A DNA stretch of 40,619 nt. Source: Clostridia bacterium. GTDB taxonomy: Bacteria > Bacillota > Clostridia > RGIG6154. Location: positions 1 through 40,619 of the forward strand of contig JAGAJK010000016.1 of the NCBI GenBank assembly GCA_017626145.1. Reading direction: 5' to 3'. Shown piece after piece: positions 5,883 to 16,574 of this stretch. Below the pieces are notes generated by a model. It saw nothing but the letters and a program-made list of their open reading frames with translations. It did not search any database and had not been told where the DNA came from. Position 1 is the stretch's first letter. Each line of letters begins with the position of its first letter. The position numbers were made by a program, and so were the translations under genes.

Positions 5883-5958
5883 AGGGGTATAGCTCAGTTG
5901 GTAGAGCATCGGTCTCCAAAACCGAGTGCCGTGGGTTCAAGTCCTACTGCCCCTGCCA
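5883..5958 (+). tRNA. trnW: tRNA-Trp (anticodon CCA), also attL of the mobile element
   Basis: A complete 76-nt cloverleaf. The acceptor AGGGGTA pairs with TGCCCCT, the D-stem is GCTC/GAGC, and the anticodon stem TCGGT/ACCGA has loop CTCCAAA with CCA at 5916-5918. The variable loop is GTGCC, the T-stem GTGGG/CCTAC, the discriminator G, and CCA is encoded. Positions 5912-5958 recur with a few changes at 16041-16087, marking the integration site of the adjacent element; its integrase gene lies just inside. Confidence 0.95.
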
Positions 5959-5962
5959 TACA

Positions 5963-6385: not shown

Positions 6386-7600
6386 TCATATCTCGAATCC
6401 GTCTGTGATTCCGGTCAGCCTTGAGTTATCCTTCTTTACATAGTACCTTTCGGTTATCTCGGTAGTGGTATGTCCGAGGATGTCGGCCACCGCTTTTATG
6501 TTTAGTGTTTTTATGCTTCCGTCAGCACACTTTGTTCCGTTGATTAGCTTGGTGGCGAAGGTGTGTCTGAATGCATGGAGTCCTTTTGTTTCTATTCCTG
6601 CAGCATTTTCTATTCTATATAGTCGTTTTCGTAGGTTAGTTGGGTTTGCATAGTCACCGTTGGCATCGCACACCAGTGGAGTGTCTTCTCCGAAGTAGAA
6701 TTCTTTCCGTAGATCGTGTATCATTTCTATTGCCGTGCTGTTTAGCGGTACGACTCGTTTGCTTGTGGTGGTTTTGGTTTTGCCTACTTTTTTAACCTTA
6801 CCGCCTATGAGCTTTGTTCCGTCTCTTTGGTCGACTAGTTTTACCGCTTGTCTTATTGTCATTGTTTTATTCTCAAGGTCTATATCACTGTTTAGTAACC
6901 CCAGAAGTTCGCCTATTCGCAGTCCTGTGTTGAGCATCAGGATGTAGGCTCCTGCCTGCTGATATACCCTATTGCCTGTGGAGTGTGTTCGAAAGGCTTC
7001 AGCTTTGAATTTTTCAAGTTCCTCATCTGTGAAGACTTCGATGGTTTCGCATTCCGGCAGGTCTTCCTTTCCTTGTGCTGACAGGAAGTTTGCTTTTTTC
7101 ATCATCTCCACATTGTCCATGGGATTCTTATGTATCCGTTCTTCTACATATAGGTTTCTATAGTATTCGTTTAGGAGTACATATGCTTTCTTTACCAGTG
7201 AGTATGATCTTCCGAGGTACATCCAGTGATTGAGCATCGCCTTGACATCGGCTGGGGTTATGTCACCGACCACCTTATCGCCGAGCAGTGGGTAGATTTG
7301 GCATCTTGCAGTTCCTTCGAGTCTGTCGTAGCTTGTTTGCTCGACCGATGGGAACTTTACTATTTCCAGCCAATTTTGCAGGCTATCTCTTAGCAGTTTC
7401 TTGCTCTCATCTGTGTCCTCGATAGCTTTTTCGAATTCTGCTATGTAGGCGGTTATCTTCTTGTTAGCTTCTTGCTTGGTAGTTCCTGAGAAGGATTTTC
7501 TTTTGCGTTCGCCTTGCTCGTCCATGTACCACACGACACCGCCCCAACGACCGTCTGTTCTTTTGAACACATTTCCGTTTGTAAGTAGCTTCTTACGCAT
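6386..7600 (-). CDS. int: Tyrosine integrase of the mobile element
   Basis: This 404-aa protein has an N-terminal arm-binding domain of the Tn916-Int type (KRTDGRWGGVVWYMDEQGERKRKSF), a core-binding helical domain around residues 70-165, and a C-terminal catalytic domain. Catalytic residues are visible: Arg228 in TGLRIGELLGL, His343 and Arg345 in HAFRHTF, His377 in LGHTTTE and the nucleophile Tyr386. It should integrate and excise the element at the tRNA-Trp 3' half. I start at MRKKLL (7600) with GGAAG upstream; the frame extends to 7762 but that stretch contains the promoter. It is transcribed toward attL, and the divergent region 7601-7760 carries promoters in both directions. Confidence 0.93.
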   Translation of the reverse strand: MRKKLLTNGNVFKRTDGRWGGVVWYMDEQGERKRKSFSGTTKQEANKKITAYIAEFEKAIEDTDESKKLLRDSLQNWLEIVKFPSVEQTSYDRLEGTARCQIYPLLGDKVVGDITPADVKAMLNHWMYLGRSYSLVKKAYVLLNEYYRNLYVEERIHKNPMDNVEMMKKANFLSAQGKEDLPECETIEVFTDEELEKFKAEAFRTHSTGNRVYQQAGAYILMLNTGLRIGELLGLLNSDIDLENKTMTIRQAVKLVDQRDGTKLIGGKVKKVGKTKTTTSKRVVPLNSTAIEMIHDLRKEFYFGEDTPLVCDANGDYANPTNLRKRLYRIENAAGIETKGLHAFRHTFATKLINGTKCADGSIKTLNIKAVADILGHTTTEITERYYVKKDNSRLTGITDGFEI

Positions 7601-7643
7601 TATCTCACTTCCTTTATTACGTATTACCTTTTTGGCAACACAA

Positions 7644-7672
7644 ACAATACCGTAAAGCTCGGCACAAGTCAA
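7644..7672 (-). promoter_or_regulatory. Promoter of the integrase gene (promoter A)
   Basis: Minus-strand TTGACT (7672-7667), 17 nt, TATTGT (7649-7644), then TTGTGTTGCC. The same -10 and downstream sequence recurs at two other promoters in the element (8437-8465, 10256-10284). A GCATCAA motif lies just upstream at 7692. Confidence 0.7.
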
Positions 7673-7728
7673 GCGTTTTTGCGAAGAAAAAGCATCAATT
7701 TTCCAAAAGACAAATAACAGTAATTTTA

Positions 7729-7757
7729 TTGACATATTACCGTGTTTAGTGTATAAT
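7729..7757 (+). promoter_or_regulatory. Orphan consensus promoter facing away from the integrase
   Basis: TTGACA (7729-7734), 17-nt spacer, TATAAT (7752-7757), a full consensus match. It points right, where only a hairpin and then the 3' end of a convergent gene lie, so no coding target is evident. The 13 bases around the -10 box match the tRNA-Trp promoter. Confidence 0.7.
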
Positions 7758-7786
7758 TCCATTAAAGTTAATCATTGAATTCAAGA

Positions 7787-8473: not shown

Positions 8474-8962
8474 TTATTCTAATACATTAATCACATTTAC
8501 CCCTTTTCTTTTTGCGTAATCAATTGTGTTCTTTGTGCCACTCTTCTGCCCATTAAAAACGGCGATTACGAGGTTAGCTCTGTCAACCATCCATTCATTT
8601 CTTACTTGATAGCATCCTGTAAAGTAATGGTCGCTGATTTTCTTGACAATGTCTGCCTTTTTAATTATTTTATTGAATCTCATCTTTTCTGTTATGCTCC
8701 GCCTGCTCTCGAAATTTGGATGAGGCAATGCACATATCAGGTGTAAGTCCTTGCTTGATTTCTTTTTCTCTAATACAATTTCTGCAGCCCATATATCCAC
8801 GCCCATTGCCATGCCGGTTATAAAAGTTATATACCCATCTGCAATAGCATCATTTATTGCCTTTTCGAGTAGTGGTTTAATCTCTCCTTCTCCAAGTTCC
8901 ATTTTATCAGGACGATGTCCTGTGAAACAACATCTGTGTAATCTTAATTCTTCTTGATTCAT
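8474..8962 (-). CDS. SLOG-family (DUF1273/YpsA-like) nucleotide-binding protein
   Basis: The 162-aa protein has the N-terminal CCFTGHRPDK, the central ITGMAMGVDIWAAE and the C-terminal VIAVFNGQKSGTKNTIDYAKRKG motifs of the SLOG Rossmann-like superfamily, closest to DUF1273/YpsA. SLOG proteins are thought to bind or process nucleotide-derived ligands; no reaction can be assigned here. The ATG at 8962 has GGAGA upstream. Only 18 bp separate it from the left palindrome of the proposed invertible segment, too little for a promoter. In the sequenced orientation no good leftward promoter lies in the segment, and a leftward terminator does. Expression is therefore predicted to depend on inversion. 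Confidence 0.85.
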   Translation of the reverse strand: MNQEELRLHRCCFTGHRPDKMELGEGEIKPLLEKAINDAIADGYITFITGMAMGVDIWAAEIVLEKKKSSKDLHLICALPHPNFESRRSITEKMRFNKIIKKADIVKKISDHYFTGCYQVRNEWMVDRANLVIAVFNGQKSGTKNTIDYAKRKGVNVINVLE

Positions 8963-8980: not shown

Positions 8981-9000
8981 CACATAATCAGCATTATGTG
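8981..9000 (+). repeat. Left inverted palindrome of the switch region (IRL)
   Basis: CACATAATCAGCATTATGTG: two 8-bp arms around CAGC. The reverse complement occurs exactly at 9210-9229. The arms around a short core look like a tyrosine-recombinase core site. Confidence 0.85.
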
Positions 9001-9019
9001 TGTAACTAAGACAGCTGAA

Positions 9020-9046
9020 ACAAAAAAATCACCCTTGTAGGTGATT
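9020..9046 (-). terminator. Leftward intrinsic terminator inside the switch segment
   Basis: On the minus strand AATCACC/GGTGATT with a 6-nt loop runs into an unbroken T-run (complement of 9022-9028). It would stop transcripts coming from the recombinase gene before they reach the SLOG gene in the present orientation. Confidence 0.8.
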
Positions 9047-9154
9047 GCAGTTACCACAAATTCAAAAGAGCCTCAGACCAATGAGTTCGATTTTTTCATT
9101 GGTCTATTTGCTATGTGCAAATTTTATGAATTCGTTCTATTTATCTCTGAAACA

Positions 9155-9183
9155 TTGACCTTTATGTATTTTCGTGGTATAAT
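9155..9183 (+). promoter_or_regulatory. Rightward promoter inside the switch segment
   Basis: TTGACC (9155-9160), 17-nt spacer, TATAAT (9178-9183): eleven of twelve consensus bases. In the present orientation it fires toward the 3' end of the recombinase gene and meets a hairpin plus T-tract within about 45 nt. Confidence 0.75.
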
Positions 9184-9208
9184 TTATTTTGAATTTTTAA
9201 TTGTTTTG

Positions 9209-9237
9209 CCACATAATGCTGATTATGTGGTCTTTTT
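9209..9237 (+). terminator. Right palindrome acting as terminator for the switch promoter (IRR)
   Basis: The 20-bp palindrome 9210-9229 (reverse complement of IRL) can fold as CCACATAAT/ATTATGTGG and is followed by TCTTTTTAATTTT. It is thus both a putative recombination site and an intrinsic terminator for the adjacent rightward promoter. Confidence 0.7.
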
Positions 9238-10081
9238 AATTTTGCATCCGCACAAGTCCCATTCTTTGCATTTGTCTGCGATGGGGTGAGCCATTTTCTA
9301 TGGTATAGATTCTGGTAGTGTTTACGCTTGAGTGTCCGAGTATATCTGCCAGGCGAACGATATCCTTTTGCAGTGAATAATATGTCCGTGCAAACAGATG
9401 GCGGAGGTTATGTGGGAATACTTTTTCTTTTGATACCCCTGCGGTTTCACACAATTGTTTCATCGATTTCCATATCGAGTGCCGATCCACAGGCTGACCT
9501 TTTCTTGTTACAAATACACTGCCCGAAGTGATATGCTTTTCCTTTATATATTTTTTAAGGAGAGTACACAATTCTCTCGGCAGAATTATCATTCGTATTT
9601 TACCTTTCAACCTAACCTGAGCCTGTCCTGTCATCACAGAATTTACATCCACATATTTTAATTCACTTACACGAATCCCTGTGGCACATATCGTCTGCAT
9701 AATGAGGTAGAGCCTTTCGTTCTTTTTGCTCTTTGCCGCTTTTAAAAGTCTTTCATACTCAGCCTTAGTCAGTTCCTTTTCGCTCTGGCAGAAGATTTGT
9801 CTTTGCACTTTTAAGTTCTTAACTTTCAGGTCATATCTTTCAATGTAATTGAAGTATCCATTGAGGGAAGACAGAACTGAGTTCACACTTGCCGGGGCAT
9901 ACTGCTGTGTTAACATGTTTTTATACTCCAGCACAAGCGTTTTTGTAAGTTCATTACCCTCTGTCCAATTTACAAATGCAGTGATGTCACGGATATATTT
10001 TTCTATGGTGACAGAGCATTTTTCTTCCTCGATTAAATAATTTTTGTAGTCTTTAATAGTGCGTTTAGTAATTTCATTCAT
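9236..10081 (-). CDS. Tyrosine recombinase (XerC/D-size), candidate invertase
   Basis: This 281-aa protein has an N-terminal core-binding domain (about residues 5-90) and a catalytic domain with a full set of residues: Arg137 in TGIRVSELK, Lys161, His224 and Arg227 in HNLRHLF, His250 in LGHSSVNTT and Tyr259. It lacks the arm-binding domain of the element integrase and is much shorter, like Xer and simple inversion recombinases. It ends with a basic tail (HRRQMQRMGLVRMQN). The ATG at 10081 has AAAGGAG upstream; the longer frame to 10141 has no good site. Its stop is 6 bp from the right inverted palindrome, which makes it the natural candidate to invert 8981-9229. A leader peptide and hairpin precede it. 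Confidence 0.9.
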   Translation of the reverse strand: MNEITKRTIKDYKNYLIEEEKCSVTIEKYIRDITAFVNWTEGNELTKTLVLEYKNMLTQQYAPASVNSVLSSLNGYFNYIERYDLKVKNLKVQRQIFCQSEKELTKAEYERLLKAAKSKKNERLYLIMQTICATGIRVSELKYVDVNSVMTGQAQVRLKGKIRMIILPRELCTLLKKYIKEKHITSGSVFVTRKGQPVDRHSIWKSMKQLCETAGVSKEKVFPHNLRHLFARTYYSLQKDIVRLADILGHSSVNTTRIYTIENGSPHRRQMQRMGLVRMQN

Positions 10082-10168
10082 TTTCAACAACTCCTTTGAT
10101 TTTATTTTACCACCAATGATAAAATATATAAGGGTTGTCAATGTTTCAGCTTATATGAATATTAAAGG

Positions 10169-10677: not shown

Positions 10678-11808
10678 CTACATTCCATGATGGATACCCA
10701 TCGCAGAATCTTTTCTGTATTCTTTTGTTCTCTCTTTTGAATCCATAATTGATTTTGTGAACCCCTCCTTGATGTCATAGTCAATCGACTGCTCAAACAT
10801 TTTACAGAGATTGAATACAATGTCAGCATAGACCGGCGTAGCTTTGACTGTATTTGTATATAAATTGTTCTGCTTATTGTCGTAGAGAGTCGCTTTTAAA
10901 ACAGCATTTGCCAAGCGTTTTTGGAGATTAAGATTGTTCTCCAGACTATCGAAACATTTTTCAGGATCCTTGCGATAATATTTCAAGAGAGCCAGCTGAA
11001 CCTGACACCATTCTTGATACAATTCTTGTAGGTTTTTATCCTTACTTACAACTTTTACAACCGCATCGACTTTGTCCTTTTGTTCACGGGAAAGGAACTG
11101 ATAATTTTTCTTGCCGGTGTATCCTGCAAGAGACAATTTCAATTCATAAAACGCATCGACAAACTCATCGGGAGCTTGACCGACATCAGCACTAAACTCA
11201 CTGACCTTTTCTTTCACGGACTCAACAAGTTTATCTCGAAGAGATTGTCTTTCATCATAGAGTTGTTTCATCTCATCTTTGAATATAGTTTTGGTCAGCG
11301 ACTCCTTGTAGCGTTCATAGTCTCTCGGACAAATAAATTCGCCACCGGGTTCTTTATTATACACAAGAAAATGTACATGATAGTGGCCAGGCTCTTTGTG
11401 AAACGCAGCGTACCATTTCATATTCTCGGCAGGAATTCTATGGAAGGATGCAATCTCAAACTGCTTTGACCTGAGAAGATTTCTCCATGCATCAGGTGTA
11501 TCATATCCGAGTCTTTCTGCATCAGTTTGTCTGAGAGATATAATTTCTTCCCAGACAATTCCTTTGTGATGATATATTTCCTGCGATGCCTTATGGAGAT
11601 TTACATAGTCCTCTTGACCAAACAAACCATGTTCGCCCATCTTTACAACCCCAGGTCTCTCGGCAGCATATTGAGTGAACACATCCGACCTGTACCTTGT
11701 ATTAATTGTTTTATCAACTCCATCTCTTTTTGAAATATATTCCGTGAATCCGCCACCGACAGGTTTGCCTGTCTTGCAGTAGCGTGTAGATATAAAAACT
11801 TTACTCAT
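10678..11808 (-). CDS. MobP-type relaxase
   Basis: This 376-aa protein carries the relaxase metal-binding motif in PGHYHVHFLVYN (His142, His144, His146), preceded by KGIVWEEIISLRQTDAERLGYDTPDAWRNLLR, typical of the MobP2/MobP3 families of Firmicutes mobilizable elements. The candidate nucleophile Tyr lies near the N-terminus (STRYCKTGK or FTEYISKRDG), but I cannot say which. The C-terminal half is helical, without a primase or helicase domain. The ATG at 11808 has GGAGG upstream; the frame runs to 12015, but that part overlaps oriT-like repeats. It should nick oriT and lead the strand into a helper conjugation channel. Confidence 0.85.
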   Translation of the reverse strand: MSKVFISTRYCKTGKPVGGGFTEYISKRDGVDKTINTRYRSDVFTQYAAERPGVVKMGEHGLFGQEDYVNLHKASQEIYHHKGIVWEEIISLRQTDAERLGYDTPDAWRNLLRSKQFEIASFHRIPAENMKWYAAFHKEPGHYHVHFLVYNKEPGGEFICPRDYERYKESLTKTIFKDEMKQLYDERQSLRDKLVESVKEKVSEFSADVGQAPDEFVDAFYELKLSLAGYTGKKNYQFLSREQKDKVDAVVKVVSKDKNLQELYQEWCQVQLALLKYYRKDPEKCFDSLENNLNLQKRLANAVLKATLYDNKQNNLYTNTVKATPVYADIVFNLCKMFEQSIDYDIKEGFTKSIMDSKERTKEYRKDSAMGIHHGM

Positions 11809-11880
11809 ATTTTTTCCTCCAATCTCAAAAATTCTTGTAATTTTGAAGATACCTGTTTTGACACCTGCTGAAACGCCCAC

Positions 11881-12010
11881 ACGGTGCGGTCTGACGGGAA
11901 TACCGCACACCCAAACCGCACCGTAAGATGCATTTTCCAATCTCTCCGCCGGGCTTTGCACGGCGATGTGAGCCTGCTTGGGGCGGAAAGCGCACCAAGC
12001 TTTATCCTGC
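11881..12010 (+). other. Candidate origin of transfer (oriT) with MOBP nic motif
   Basis: Upstream of the relaxase is a GC-rich, repeat-rich stretch. A perfect 10-bp inverted repeat ACGGTGCGGT/ACCGCACCGT lies at 11881-11890/11915-11924. A shorter one, GCTTGG/CCAAGC, lies at 11976-11981/11995-12000. Directly after it comes TATCCTGC (12003-12010), matching the YATCCTGY nic consensus of MOBP relaxases. The order (inverted repeat, then nic, relaxase divergent) is as expected. Confidence 0.6.
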
Positions 12011-12323
12011 TTCAATTTATTCCGCCGATTTTCCTGTCAAATTAAGTCTATTTTCATGCGGCAATTTTATCATTTTCACAGTATTTATTTTGTATGCGTA
12101 ACTTTACTTTCCTCTATGATGTATTATCCTATACCTTGCATTTCTTTTTCCAATATCTATGACAGTTATGTTACAATTAGTTACGGAATCGATTCTTCGA
12201 CCTTATCACGCGGTATATTTGGCGGGTACAAGCGATTAACTTTTCATGGTAGTGTAACTACCTTACCACAAGATTTTTACTTTAAAACCTGCTGTTACGG
12301 TTGCGTTCAAACCGATAAATAAT
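12011..12323. other. Non-coding stretch between oriT and the HTH gene
   Basis: I see no gene. It holds an AT-rich stretch and a small hairpin, GGTAGT/ACTACC (12248-12262). A TATGCGTAAC motif at 12093-12102 is shared with the hairpin at 7787-7817. The relaxase promoter probably lies here, but no clear -35/-10 pair stands out. Confidence 0.4.
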
Positions 12324-13501: not shown

Positions 13502-13520
13502 GAATTTTTTGGAGGACAAT

Positions 13521-14696
13521 ATGTTTTCATTCAGAGCATACTTTTTTAATCACGATGTGTATATAAATGAGAAATATAAATACGCTGCCGGCGAGATACT
13601 GACAGCGTATTTGAACACAGATTTTTACGATGATATTGTAGAGTTTGATGCAATAAGAGTTTTGCGCAGGCTGAAAGAAAATTTAAAAATTGATGAGTTT
13701 TTGGACTACGAACTCCAATCCAAATACAACTCAAATGTCTATGAGGCAATATCAATTTTTGAACATATACACGCTAAATTAAAAAAGCTGCCGCCGTATA
13801 ACAAAATAATAAAACCCGACTATATGAAATTGGATGATTTGATAAATAAGTATGACGAATTTTTTGAAGATGGATTAAGAGATTATGACGAAGAAATCAC
13901 TTGGGAAACTTCTACAAAATACGGAACCGGAGAAATTACTGACAGCGGACACGGAAGATTAAGACTGCATACTTTCTTTCCTGATGATGCAGAGGAAATT
14001 AAAAAGTATGACAAGGACATGGTTGAATTATTAGTTAAATTCAATTCTGCTATAGAATATTTCTTTGAAAGTTATATATCTTTACTTGAATCATATAAAA
14101 ATATATTTGAGATTTTTATGCCGTTCATCGATGAATTTTTGCATCACAAGGAAACATATCTTACGCCGACAGAGCTTGCAAAGGCGTTTGATGAATATAA
14201 CAAAAAGCACGGAATTAATTTCACAAAAATTCAATGCTGTATGAATTCATTCCGATATAAGTCCTTAATAGATTCATCGGGCAATTCCATTCTGTGCGAG
14301 GAAATCAATTTCGAGGATTTACAGTCATTCTTATATTTTGATTTCTTTAACGGAATAAGAAATAACTATATCCCGAATAAATGCAAGAATTGCGGAAAAT
14401 ACTTTCTAATTCAAGGCGGAAAGTATTTCAGTTATTGCGACAGAAAATTAAAAGACGACCCAACCAAAACCTGCCGTGATGTCGGTTCCAGACGAAGATA
14501 TGATGATAAGTGCAAAAATGATCCTATCTGGCAAACTTATAACAGAGCATACAAAGCTCATTATGCCCGATATATGAAAAAGAAAATGACCATCTCCGAA
14601 TTCGAAGAATGGTCACGATTTGCATCTGAAATAAGGGATAAAGCTATCGCCGGGGAAATTTCATACGACGACTATTATACCCAAATTCGGAAATAG
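13521..14696 (+). CDS. DUF6076-like protein with Cys-rich zinc-finger-type motif
   Basis: The 391-aa protein is acidic and helical for its first 270 residues. It then carries NKCKNCGKYFLIQGGKYFSYCDRK and TCRDVGSRRRYDDKC near residues 290-320, a probable zinc-binding Cys cluster, followed by a basic helical tail (YNRAYKAHYARYMKKKMT). This layout is what I associate with DUF6076 proteins of clostridial mobile elements; the function is unknown. The ATG at 13521 is used because GGAGG ends 5 nt before it; a TTG at 13509 is in frame. It is the only large rightward gene before the Fic pair. A DNA- or RNA-binding role is inference. Confidence 0.65.
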   Translation: MFSFRAYFFNHDVYINEKYKYAAGEILTAYLNTDFYDDIVEFDAIRVLRRLKENLKIDEFLDYELQSKYNSNVYEAISIFEHIHAKLKKLPPYNKIIKPDYMKLDDLINKYDEFFEDGLRDYDEEITWETSTKYGTGEITDSGHGRLRLHTFFPDDAEEIKKYDKDMVELLVKFNSAIEYFFESYISLLESYKNIFEIFMPFIDEFLHHKETYLTPTELAKAFDEYNKKHGINFTKIQCCMNSFRYKSLIDSSGNSILCEEINFEDLQSFLYFDFFNGIRNNYIPNKCKNCGKYFLIQGGKYFSYCDRKLKDDPTKTCRDVGSRRRYDDKCKNDPIWQTYNRAYKAHYARYMKKKMTISEFEEWSRFASEIRDKAIAGEISYDDYYTQIRK

Positions 14697-14768
14697 CCTA
14701 TTTCTTTGTTTACAGTGGGTCAGTTTTTGATATAGGGTTTTTATAATATTACATTTTTGCAATTCGTA

Positions 14769-14797
14769 TTGTAATTTTTGCGGTTTTATGTTATACT
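14769..14797 (+). promoter_or_regulatory. Promoter of the Fic antitoxin-toxin operon
   Basis: TTGTAA (14769-14774), 17-nt spacer, TATACT (14792-14797). The start near 14804 gives a leader of about 24 nt before the antitoxin ATG at 14828. Confidence 0.65.
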
Positions 14798-14827
14798 ATG
14801 GTCATAAAGTATGAGAGGATGAAAGAT

Positions 14828-14995
14828 ATGTCAATTGACAAAGCTATTGAAAATGCAGTTGCATCTGTGAAAATGGAAGGCTTTCAGGTTGATAGCGAAT
14901 GTGTTCAGTGGTGCAAAAAACTTTTAGAAAAAGAAATTAGCATGGAACAATATATCACTCTTGTGAAACAAAAATCAGGAGTTGTTGCACAATGA
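14828..14995 (+). CDS. VbhA-like antitoxin of a Fic toxin
   Basis: The 55-aa protein carries SVKMEG (residues 13-18), the S/T-xxx-E-G/N inhibitory helix motif of class I Fic antitoxins. There the Glu blocks ATP binding in the Fic active site. The C-terminal part matches the antitoxin VbhA pattern (VQWCKKLLEKEISMEQYI). The ATG at 14828 follows GAGAGGATG; an in-frame ATG at 14798 sits inside the promoter start region and is disfavoured. Its stop overlaps the fic start by 4 bp, the normal antitoxin-toxin order and coupling. Confidence 0.85.
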   Translation: MSIDKAIENAVASVKMEGFQVDSECVQWCKKLLEKEISMEQYITLVKQKSGVVAQ

Positions 14996-15615
14996 GTTAC
15001 AGCATAGATGCAATTACTGATAATTGTTATAAAGGTACCACTTGTCTTATAAACAAACTTGATATTCGAGATGAAAAGCAGTTGGATGTTGTAGAATCGC
15101 AGATAACTGTCGCTAAAATTTCAATTCTCCAACATAATCCTATTGATGGAAATTTTGATTTTGAACACTATAAAGCAATTCATAAATTTATATTTGAAGA
15201 TTTATATGATTGGGCAGGCATTCCAAGAACGGTAGATATTTCAAAGAAAGGGACATTGTTTGTAGCAGCCAAGAACATAGCTGAAATTGCTACAGCATGT
15301 TTTGAACGCCTTAAAAATCAGGATTATTTCAAAAATCTTGATTTAGATAATTTCGTTGAAAAAATAACCGATTTCTATTGTGTTACCAATAACCTGCACC
15401 CTTTTAGAGAAGGCAACGGGAGAACACAACGAGTATTCCTATCACAATTAGCACTCAATGCTGGATACGAAATGGATTTTGCAAATATGGATACCGATGA
15501 ATTAATGGTTGCAACAATTCAGGCAGCAAACGGTGTTGATGCATACTTGAAAAATTTATTAAGAGAAATTATAAATCCTATTGAACCTGATTTTGATATG
15601 TCAATGCAATTATAA
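14992..15615 (+). CDS. fic: Fic-domain AMP-transferase toxin
   Basis: The 207-aa protein contains the complete Fic motif HPFREGNGRTQR (residues 136-147): catalytic His, acidic metal ligand, and Gly/Arg for nucleotide binding. YDWAGIPRTVDISKKGTLF (near 72-91) supplies the beta-flap region. Fic toxins transfer AMP from ATP to a hydroxyl of a target protein; in related bacterial toxins the targets are topoisomerases, but here the target is unknown. Lacking an internal inhibitory helix at its N-terminus, it depends on the upstream antitoxin (class I). Its place next to attR is typical of an element-maintenance module. Confidence 0.92.
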   Translation: MSYSIDAITDNCYKGTTCLINKLDIRDEKQLDVVESQITVAKISILQHNPIDGNFDFEHYKAIHKFIFEDLYDWAGIPRTVDISKKGTLFVAAKNIAEIATACFERLKNQDYFKNLDLDNFVEKITDFYCVTNNLHPFREGNGRTQRVFLSQLALNAGYEMDFANMDTDELMVATIQAANGVDAYLKNLLREIINPIEPDFDMSMQL

Positions 15616-16040: not shown

Positions 16041-16087
16041 GTCTCCAAAACCGCGTGCCGTGAGTTCGATTCTTACTGCCCCTGCCA
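16041..16087 (+). repeat. attR: displaced 3' half of tRNA-Trp
   Basis: GTCTCCAAAACCG, a variable loop, T-arm and TACTGCCCCTGCCA copy positions 5912-5958 of the intact tRNA with a few substitutions (GAGTTCGATTCTT for GGGTTCAAGTCCT). There is no 5' half, so it is not a functional tRNA. Confidence 0.9.
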
Positions 16088-16090
16088 TCG

Positions 16091-16553: not shown

Positions 16554-16573
16554 GATTCTTACTGCCCCTGCCA
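16554..16573 (+). repeat. Third copy of the tRNA-Trp 3' tail
   Basis: GATTCTTACTGCCCCTGCCA is identical to the last 20 bases of attR. It most likely marks the end of a previous integration at the same tRNA. Confidence 0.8.
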
Positions 16574-16574
16574 T

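Follow-up and report, generated by a model that had tools for sequence, protein, structure and literature searches.

The window, by which the whole analysed stretch of 40,619 nucleotides is meant, holds an integrase gene, a relaxase gene and direct repeats at the 3' end of tRNA-Trp, as found in integrative and mobilizable elements. Judged by these features, the carrier of the genes described below is a mobilizable element of roughly 10 kb lying in tRNA-Trp. The element also encodes a helix-turn-helix protein and, at 13509-15615, DUF6076 and Fic proteins, the Fic protein with a strong PADLOC candidate-defence match (PDC-S04). A third partial tRNA-Trp 3' end was found at 16554-16574, ∼0.5 kb past the right end of the element. 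It is identical over 21 bp to part of the right repeat and is possibly the scar of an older insertion.

Two genes of the element flank a segment of 249 bp (8981-9229). On one side is an SLOG-family gene, whose product has weak similarity to DprA and to the defence protein ShosA; the SLOG family is thought to sense nucleotide-like ligands. On the other side is a gene for a tyrosine recombinase and, given that the element has its own integrase, this is the second tyrosine recombinase on the element. The positions of all features are collected in Table 1.

Table 1. Features of the element, of the 249-bp segment and of the genes on either side of it.
Feature	Position	Strand	Evidence and remarks
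tRNA-Trp	5883-5958		tRNA call
Element left end, 48-bp direct repeat over tRNA-Trp 3' end	5912-5959	.	Repeat search
Element integrase, tyrosine type, distinct from switch recombinase	6386-7762	-	PF00589 2e-20, PF14659 1.7e-7; ORF may begin too early
SLOG-family gene (YpsA/YspA type), predicted switch target	8474-8962	-	PF06908 1.6e-19
Distal (cargo-side) putative recombination site, CACATAATCAGCATTATGTG	8981-9000	.	Core TCAGCA on + strand
Leftward intrinsic terminator (predicted)	9046-9027	-	Fold z -1.7; would insulate SLOG gene in present orientation
Central hairpin of segment	9075-9105	.	-17 to -19 kcal/mol
Predicted invertible sigma-70-type promoter, TTGACC-17-TATAAT	9155-9183	+	11/12 consensus bases, extended -10 TG; points at recombinase 3' end
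Rightward terminator (predicted), proximal palindrome + CTTTTT	9208-9237 (scored part 9208-9231)	+	-12.5 kcal/mol, z -3.6
Proximal (recombinase-side) putative recombination site	9210-9229	.	Site search; exact reverse complement of distal site
Switch recombinase, Xer-like tyrosine recombinase	9236-10081	-	PF00589 (Phage_integrase) 5.3e-29
MobP3/MobL relaxase	10678-12015	-	NCBIfam NF041499 221 bits (cut-off 150); PF18555 8.2e-21
Element right end, direct repeat of tRNA-Trp 3' end	16041-16088	.	90% identical to 5912-5959

The reading frame of the switch recombinase is intact. It carries the R..K..H-x-x-R..H..Y residues of tyrosine recombinases, and R138, K162, H225, R228, H251 and Y260 (numbering of window:9239-10084) are invariant in the family alignment. 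The nearest solved structures are those of XerC-like 4a8e, XerA 5hxy and XerD 1a0p. However, the protein reached the cut-off of none of the NCBIfam Xer and invertase models, scoring 132 against 329.6 for the XerD equivalog and 137 against 220 for XerA, and falling far under the cut-off of the 'tyrosine-type DNA invertase' models. On these scores it is classed as Xer-like and not as Xer proper. Two paralogues, 60–64% identical, are present on contigs C1 and C81 of the same genome. A search of viral contigs gave no relatives and phage records gave distant recombinases only. Six more distant paralogues (42%) are found together in one other genome (G315 contigs C1, C2, C8, C12, C25 and C42), a possible multi-switch genome.

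The segment and its predicted promoter

The segment is bounded by two 20-bp sites, each an imperfect palindrome with 8-bp arms around a 4-nt core (CAGC/GCTG). Allowing up to three mismatches, CACATAATCAGCATTATGTG matches the window at just these two places, compared with a mean of 0.03 matches in the shuffled window, where none of the shuffles gave two. The sites are also the sole exact inverted 18-mer pair lying 100 to 600 bp apart in the whole window. The segment thus has the inverted repeats with an asymmetric core, around a short stretch of DNA, that are looked for in an inverton. The stop of the recombinase gene (9236) lies 6 nt from the right site and the left site lies 18 nt from the ATG of the SLOG gene (8962), both gaps being as given in the preliminary description of this DNA. 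That description had also reported the exact reverse-complementary palindromes, a rightward promoter with a 17-nt spacer matching 11 of 12 consensus bases, a leftward hairpin with a T-run and the lack of a good leftward promoter, and every part of it that was checked was recovered. The central hairpin is absent from it; hairpins like this one were seen in related segments too.

The promoter and terminator calls in the window are consensus matches. In the present orientation the best promoter-like site facing the SLOG gene matches 8 of 12 bases at most. When the segment is inverted on paper, both sites remain as before and the 11/12 promoter comes, as had been proposed, to face the SLOG gene. 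The -10 element is then 64 nt from the ATG. By consensus match, an internal promoter is aimed at the gene in one orientation only, which is a further mark of an inverton. The position of the switch promoter and its extended -10 are common to the family of related loci described below.

The suggestion that the right palindrome doubles as a terminator is supported by its folding energy, and the T-run bias recurs across the family: at least five T in the first 8 nt past the palindrome were counted on the recombinase side at 52 of 86 loci, whereas the cargo side shows this at 9. The distal palindrome of the window is without a T-run beyond it.

A 13-mer covering the -35 of the switch promoter, CTGAAACATTGAC at 9147-9159, recurs on the opposite strand at 10137-10149, upstream of the recombinase gene. 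Loci L069 and L172 have similar ...CATTGACA motifs. The recurrence may reflect joint control of the switch and recombinase promoters. Across the family, the stretch shared between the switch promoter and the recombinase upstream region shows a small excess (9.7 vs 8.7 nt).

Pairing of cores at related loci

Relatives were drawn from the same class (Clostridia), their recombinases being mostly 45–75% identical, with one at 95%. In most of them a first ACATAA-N6-TTATGT site is usually found ∼40 bp or less past the recombinase stop and a second about 150–430 bp beyond the first. All distinct loci with two perfect-arm sites 3' of the recombinase were then compared, no match between cores being presupposed. 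The two cores were reverse-complementary in every one of the 81 distinct loci; none were in direct orientation and none were mismatched. The arms are constant across loci while the cores vary, 51 distinct 6-bp cores being present. Pairing within a locus combined with constant arms is expected if a single recombinase family exchanges strands in a homology-dependent way, and the pairing is unexplained by any rival considered here.

One such rival is that the palindromes form a static structure, either two terminator hairpins or two copies of an operator, and not recombination sites. Both palindromes do fold as hairpins, the proximal one with a T-run, and palindromic arms would suit a dimeric repressor as well. 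However, a terminator or an operator needs no cores that match within a locus, differ between loci and are always inverted (81/81), nor would it yield the homologous segments in both orientations described in the next section, and we regard a static structure as very improbable indeed.

In the genome that holds the window (2.78 Mb), ACATAA-N6-TTATGT occurs at five places, all beside three members of the family, compared with one match to a reversed control pattern. The three switches of this genome all differ in their cores, which are CAGC, TCTT and CTAT. This bears on a second alternative, namely that flipping occurs mainly in trans by another recombinase, for example the paralogues on C1 or C81 or a host Xer protein, with the adjacent gene dispensable. 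Arms common to all family sites and the similarity of the paralogues fit action in trans, as does the precedent of Clostridioides difficile RecV, which acts on several switches (PMC5903667). Locus L173 (G358:C15) is a further point for it: a 62%-identical recombinase lies before the remnant of a window-like recombinase 3' end, followed by an intact SLOG switch, an arrangement that from its sequence is a replacement of the recombinase at a kept switch. Against this, at almost all readable loci a recombinase belonging to the locus lies ∼100 bp or less from its site, and the private cores of the three switches in this genome likewise speak against sharing. Flipping mainly in trans is considered quite unlikely.

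Some loci of the family have one site or diverged arms. Where there was room but no perfect pair, a looser search gave inverted repeats at many loci, their arms having diverged, and nothing at some. None of the 51 cores is palindromic, a result that chance alone would give ∼6% of the time, and avoidance of palindromic cores is not claimed. An exact copy of the site in viral contigs (L129) was rejected as a chance match, as it sits alone inside a phage gene.

Several loci depart from the simple arrangement. Two tandem copies of the site lie on one side of the segment in L004, L006, L012, L033, L078, L172 and L176; where the copies were read, their cores agree. The segments of L052 (16–434 past the recombinase) and L081, of 361 and 401 bp respectively, have strong promoters at both ends and either orientation might drive something; on the recombinase side of L052 its two sites form a tandem pair. 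At L041 (G027:C86, 2392-3047) a segment between two convergent recombinase genes, the second of which is cut by the contig end, is bounded by an inverted repeat of 29 bp whose arms are different.

Orientation of homologous segments

The promoter faces the recombinase (scored as OFF) at 56 of 86 loci and the downstream gene (ON) at 25, with five unclear. Homologous loci in both orientations, a further property of invertons, were found on aligning segments. L031 and L032 score 18 forward and 135 reverse, L118 and L120, which share a core, 16 and 103, and the window and L166 score 11 and 60. In these flipped pairs the orientation of the recombinase is fixed and the flanks are in place. The preliminary description had proposed a search of related genomes for the segment flipped beside this recombinase, and these pairs are homologues of that sort with a recombinase of the same kind. 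The recombinase of L166 is 71% identical to that of the window and its promoter faces another SLOG-family gene, whose Pfam score of 24.0 bits falls just short of the curated 27.7. A minimum of 17 changes of orientation is needed on the recombinase tree, compared with 21.6 for shuffled labels, two of 200 shuffles being as low.

The same SLOG gene as in the window lies behind the switch in L049, L165 and L173. These are the closest readable relatives with that gene and all are OFF; L165 and L173 align in the window orientation with scores of 93 and 99. Close relatives were also searched for a locus that differs just in having the SLOG switch flipped, and all that turned up were contigs that break off at the site. 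In two of these with the same core, G224:C4 (95% identical to the window) and G396:C6 (96%, over the recombinase end and site), the contig stops at the site itself or just past it, by a few nt. The same holds for the contigs of G361:C23, L060 and L113, and at G361:C63 and G047:C6 a distal site marks the end or the start of the contig. In the set of genome contigs, a contig end lies less than 300 bp from the recombinase 3' end in 8 of 80 contigs (one of them inside the gene) and from the 5' end in 1 of 80, a comparison made after the ends had been seen. Where both orientations are present, an assembler would end the contig at the site. The contig ends are therefore suggestive of inversion in the relatives, and other causes can apply.

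It could be argued that the switch once worked but has since become locked OFF in this lineage, its recombinase being silent or its sites seldom used. Such a loss fits the OFF state that the window shares with L049, L165 and L173, and also the excess of OFF over ON in the family. However, the recombinase has an intact frame and a full set of catalytic residues, and the two sites match each other over all 20 bp. The contigs of the two close relatives (95–96%) end at the site, and L166, the 71% relative whose cargo is of the SLOG family, is ON. A locked switch is considered unlikely.

The 249-bp segment of this gut Clostridia bacterium is very probably a phase-variation promoter switch for the SLOG gene, flipped by a recombinase and read here as OFF. 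The core pairing and the homologous segments in both orientations support this reading, which was that of the preliminary description. The recombinase would bind the conserved arms ACATAAT/ATTATGT of both palindromic sites and exchange strands across the shared 6-bp core. Since the cores are inverted, such an exchange would flip the segment. In the OFF state, as read in the window, the promoter would fire toward the 3' end of the recombinase gene and be halted by the proximal palindrome and its T-run, while the leftward terminator would block read-through from the recombinase gene into the SLOG gene. In the flipped state the promoter would drive the SLOG gene across the distal palindrome and, as no T-run follows that palindrome, the SLOG gene would be ON. 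We infer from these features that the switch is active in this strain, that the adjacent gene supplies the acting recombinase and that transcription differs between the states in this way. The benefit would presumably be heterogeneous expression of an SLOG protein borne by a mobilizable element. If this reading is true, an SLOG-family gene of a mobilizable element has been put under reversible on/off control.

Cargo genes and known systems

The relatives have about 85 related switches in front of other cargo genes, part of them in one orientation and part in the other. The downstream gene was chosen automatically and individual picks can be wrong; among 80 predicted downstream proteins there were 13 matches to TetR_N, five to YpsA SLOG and four to SPFH, with single matches to Hsp70, a TIR domain of CAP12/Pycsar type, GGDEF, EAL and others. 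Many of the remaining proteins start like secreted or surface proteins. Recombinases that are 88–91% identical have unrelated cargo. Taken with the 51 cores, the cargo tally and the three cores of this genome, this raises the prospect that recombinase and invertible promoter form a portable, cargo-blind cassette of Clostridia, any gene placed behind it becoming phase variable, a proposal for and against which we find the balance about even. The cores would drift in each copy while the arms stayed constant, so that several copies in one cell would be kept independent by their own 6-bp cores. If the proposal is true, regulators and SLOG, SPFH, Hsp70, TIR-domain and surface proteins are made phase variable through this cassette. 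On the cargo tally, one recombinase family has set very different genes, among them those for transcription regulators and phage-defence-related proteins, under the same kind of putative switch in gut Clostridia that are mostly uncultured. The covarying cores offer a simple rule for spotting such switches in assemblies without reads, and the family offers dozens of natural site variants that are apparently mutually independent. A description of the ACATAAT sites or of the private cores was not found in the open-access literature.

Switches in which an invertible promoter adjoins the gene of its recombinase are already known. In fimS of E. coli a promoter on a short invertible element is flipped by the tyrosine recombinases FimB and FimE; the window recombinase differs from these in being longer and Xer-like. 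RecV of C. difficile resembles the window recombinase in being a tyrosine recombinase of Clostridia that inverts short segments upstream of genes. However, RecV is one master recombinase serving several switches in trans (PMC5903667), whereas in the window family every switch comes with a recombinase of its own and, in most cases, with a private core. Bacteroidales have invertible promoters of the IP-ARG classes, borne on ICEs and with variable cargo (PMC8748976). As in the window family, the promoter lies directly downstream of the invertase with variable genes behind it, and there the elements are conjugative. Those promoters are of the type -33 TTTG / -7 TANNTTTGY, with other invertases and with resistance or glycan cargo (PMC8748976), whereas in the window the promoter is sigma-70-type, the host belongs to Clostridia and the element is mobilizable with MobP3.

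A close likeness is to a group in a 2025 survey in Microbiome (PMC11892184). Inverton group 139, with 33 invertons in Clostridia, was tied there to tyrosine-recombinase group 35, and shifts in its orientation in culture were seen by reads. As in the window family, the hosts are Clostridia and one tyrosine-recombinase group adjoins nearly all members. The two examples with printed coordinates have an overall length of ∼255 bp, resembling the 249-bp segment. The window has these same properties, namely a Clostridia host, an adjacent tyrosine recombinase and a segment of about that length. In the main text of the survey, cargo, private cores and a terminator role were not found for group 139. The window family may be group 139, the two being likened here by host, adjacency and length and not by repeat motif or recombinase sequence. 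The switch of the window thus joins a known kind, and the rule that holds at the level of the family is the more interesting part.
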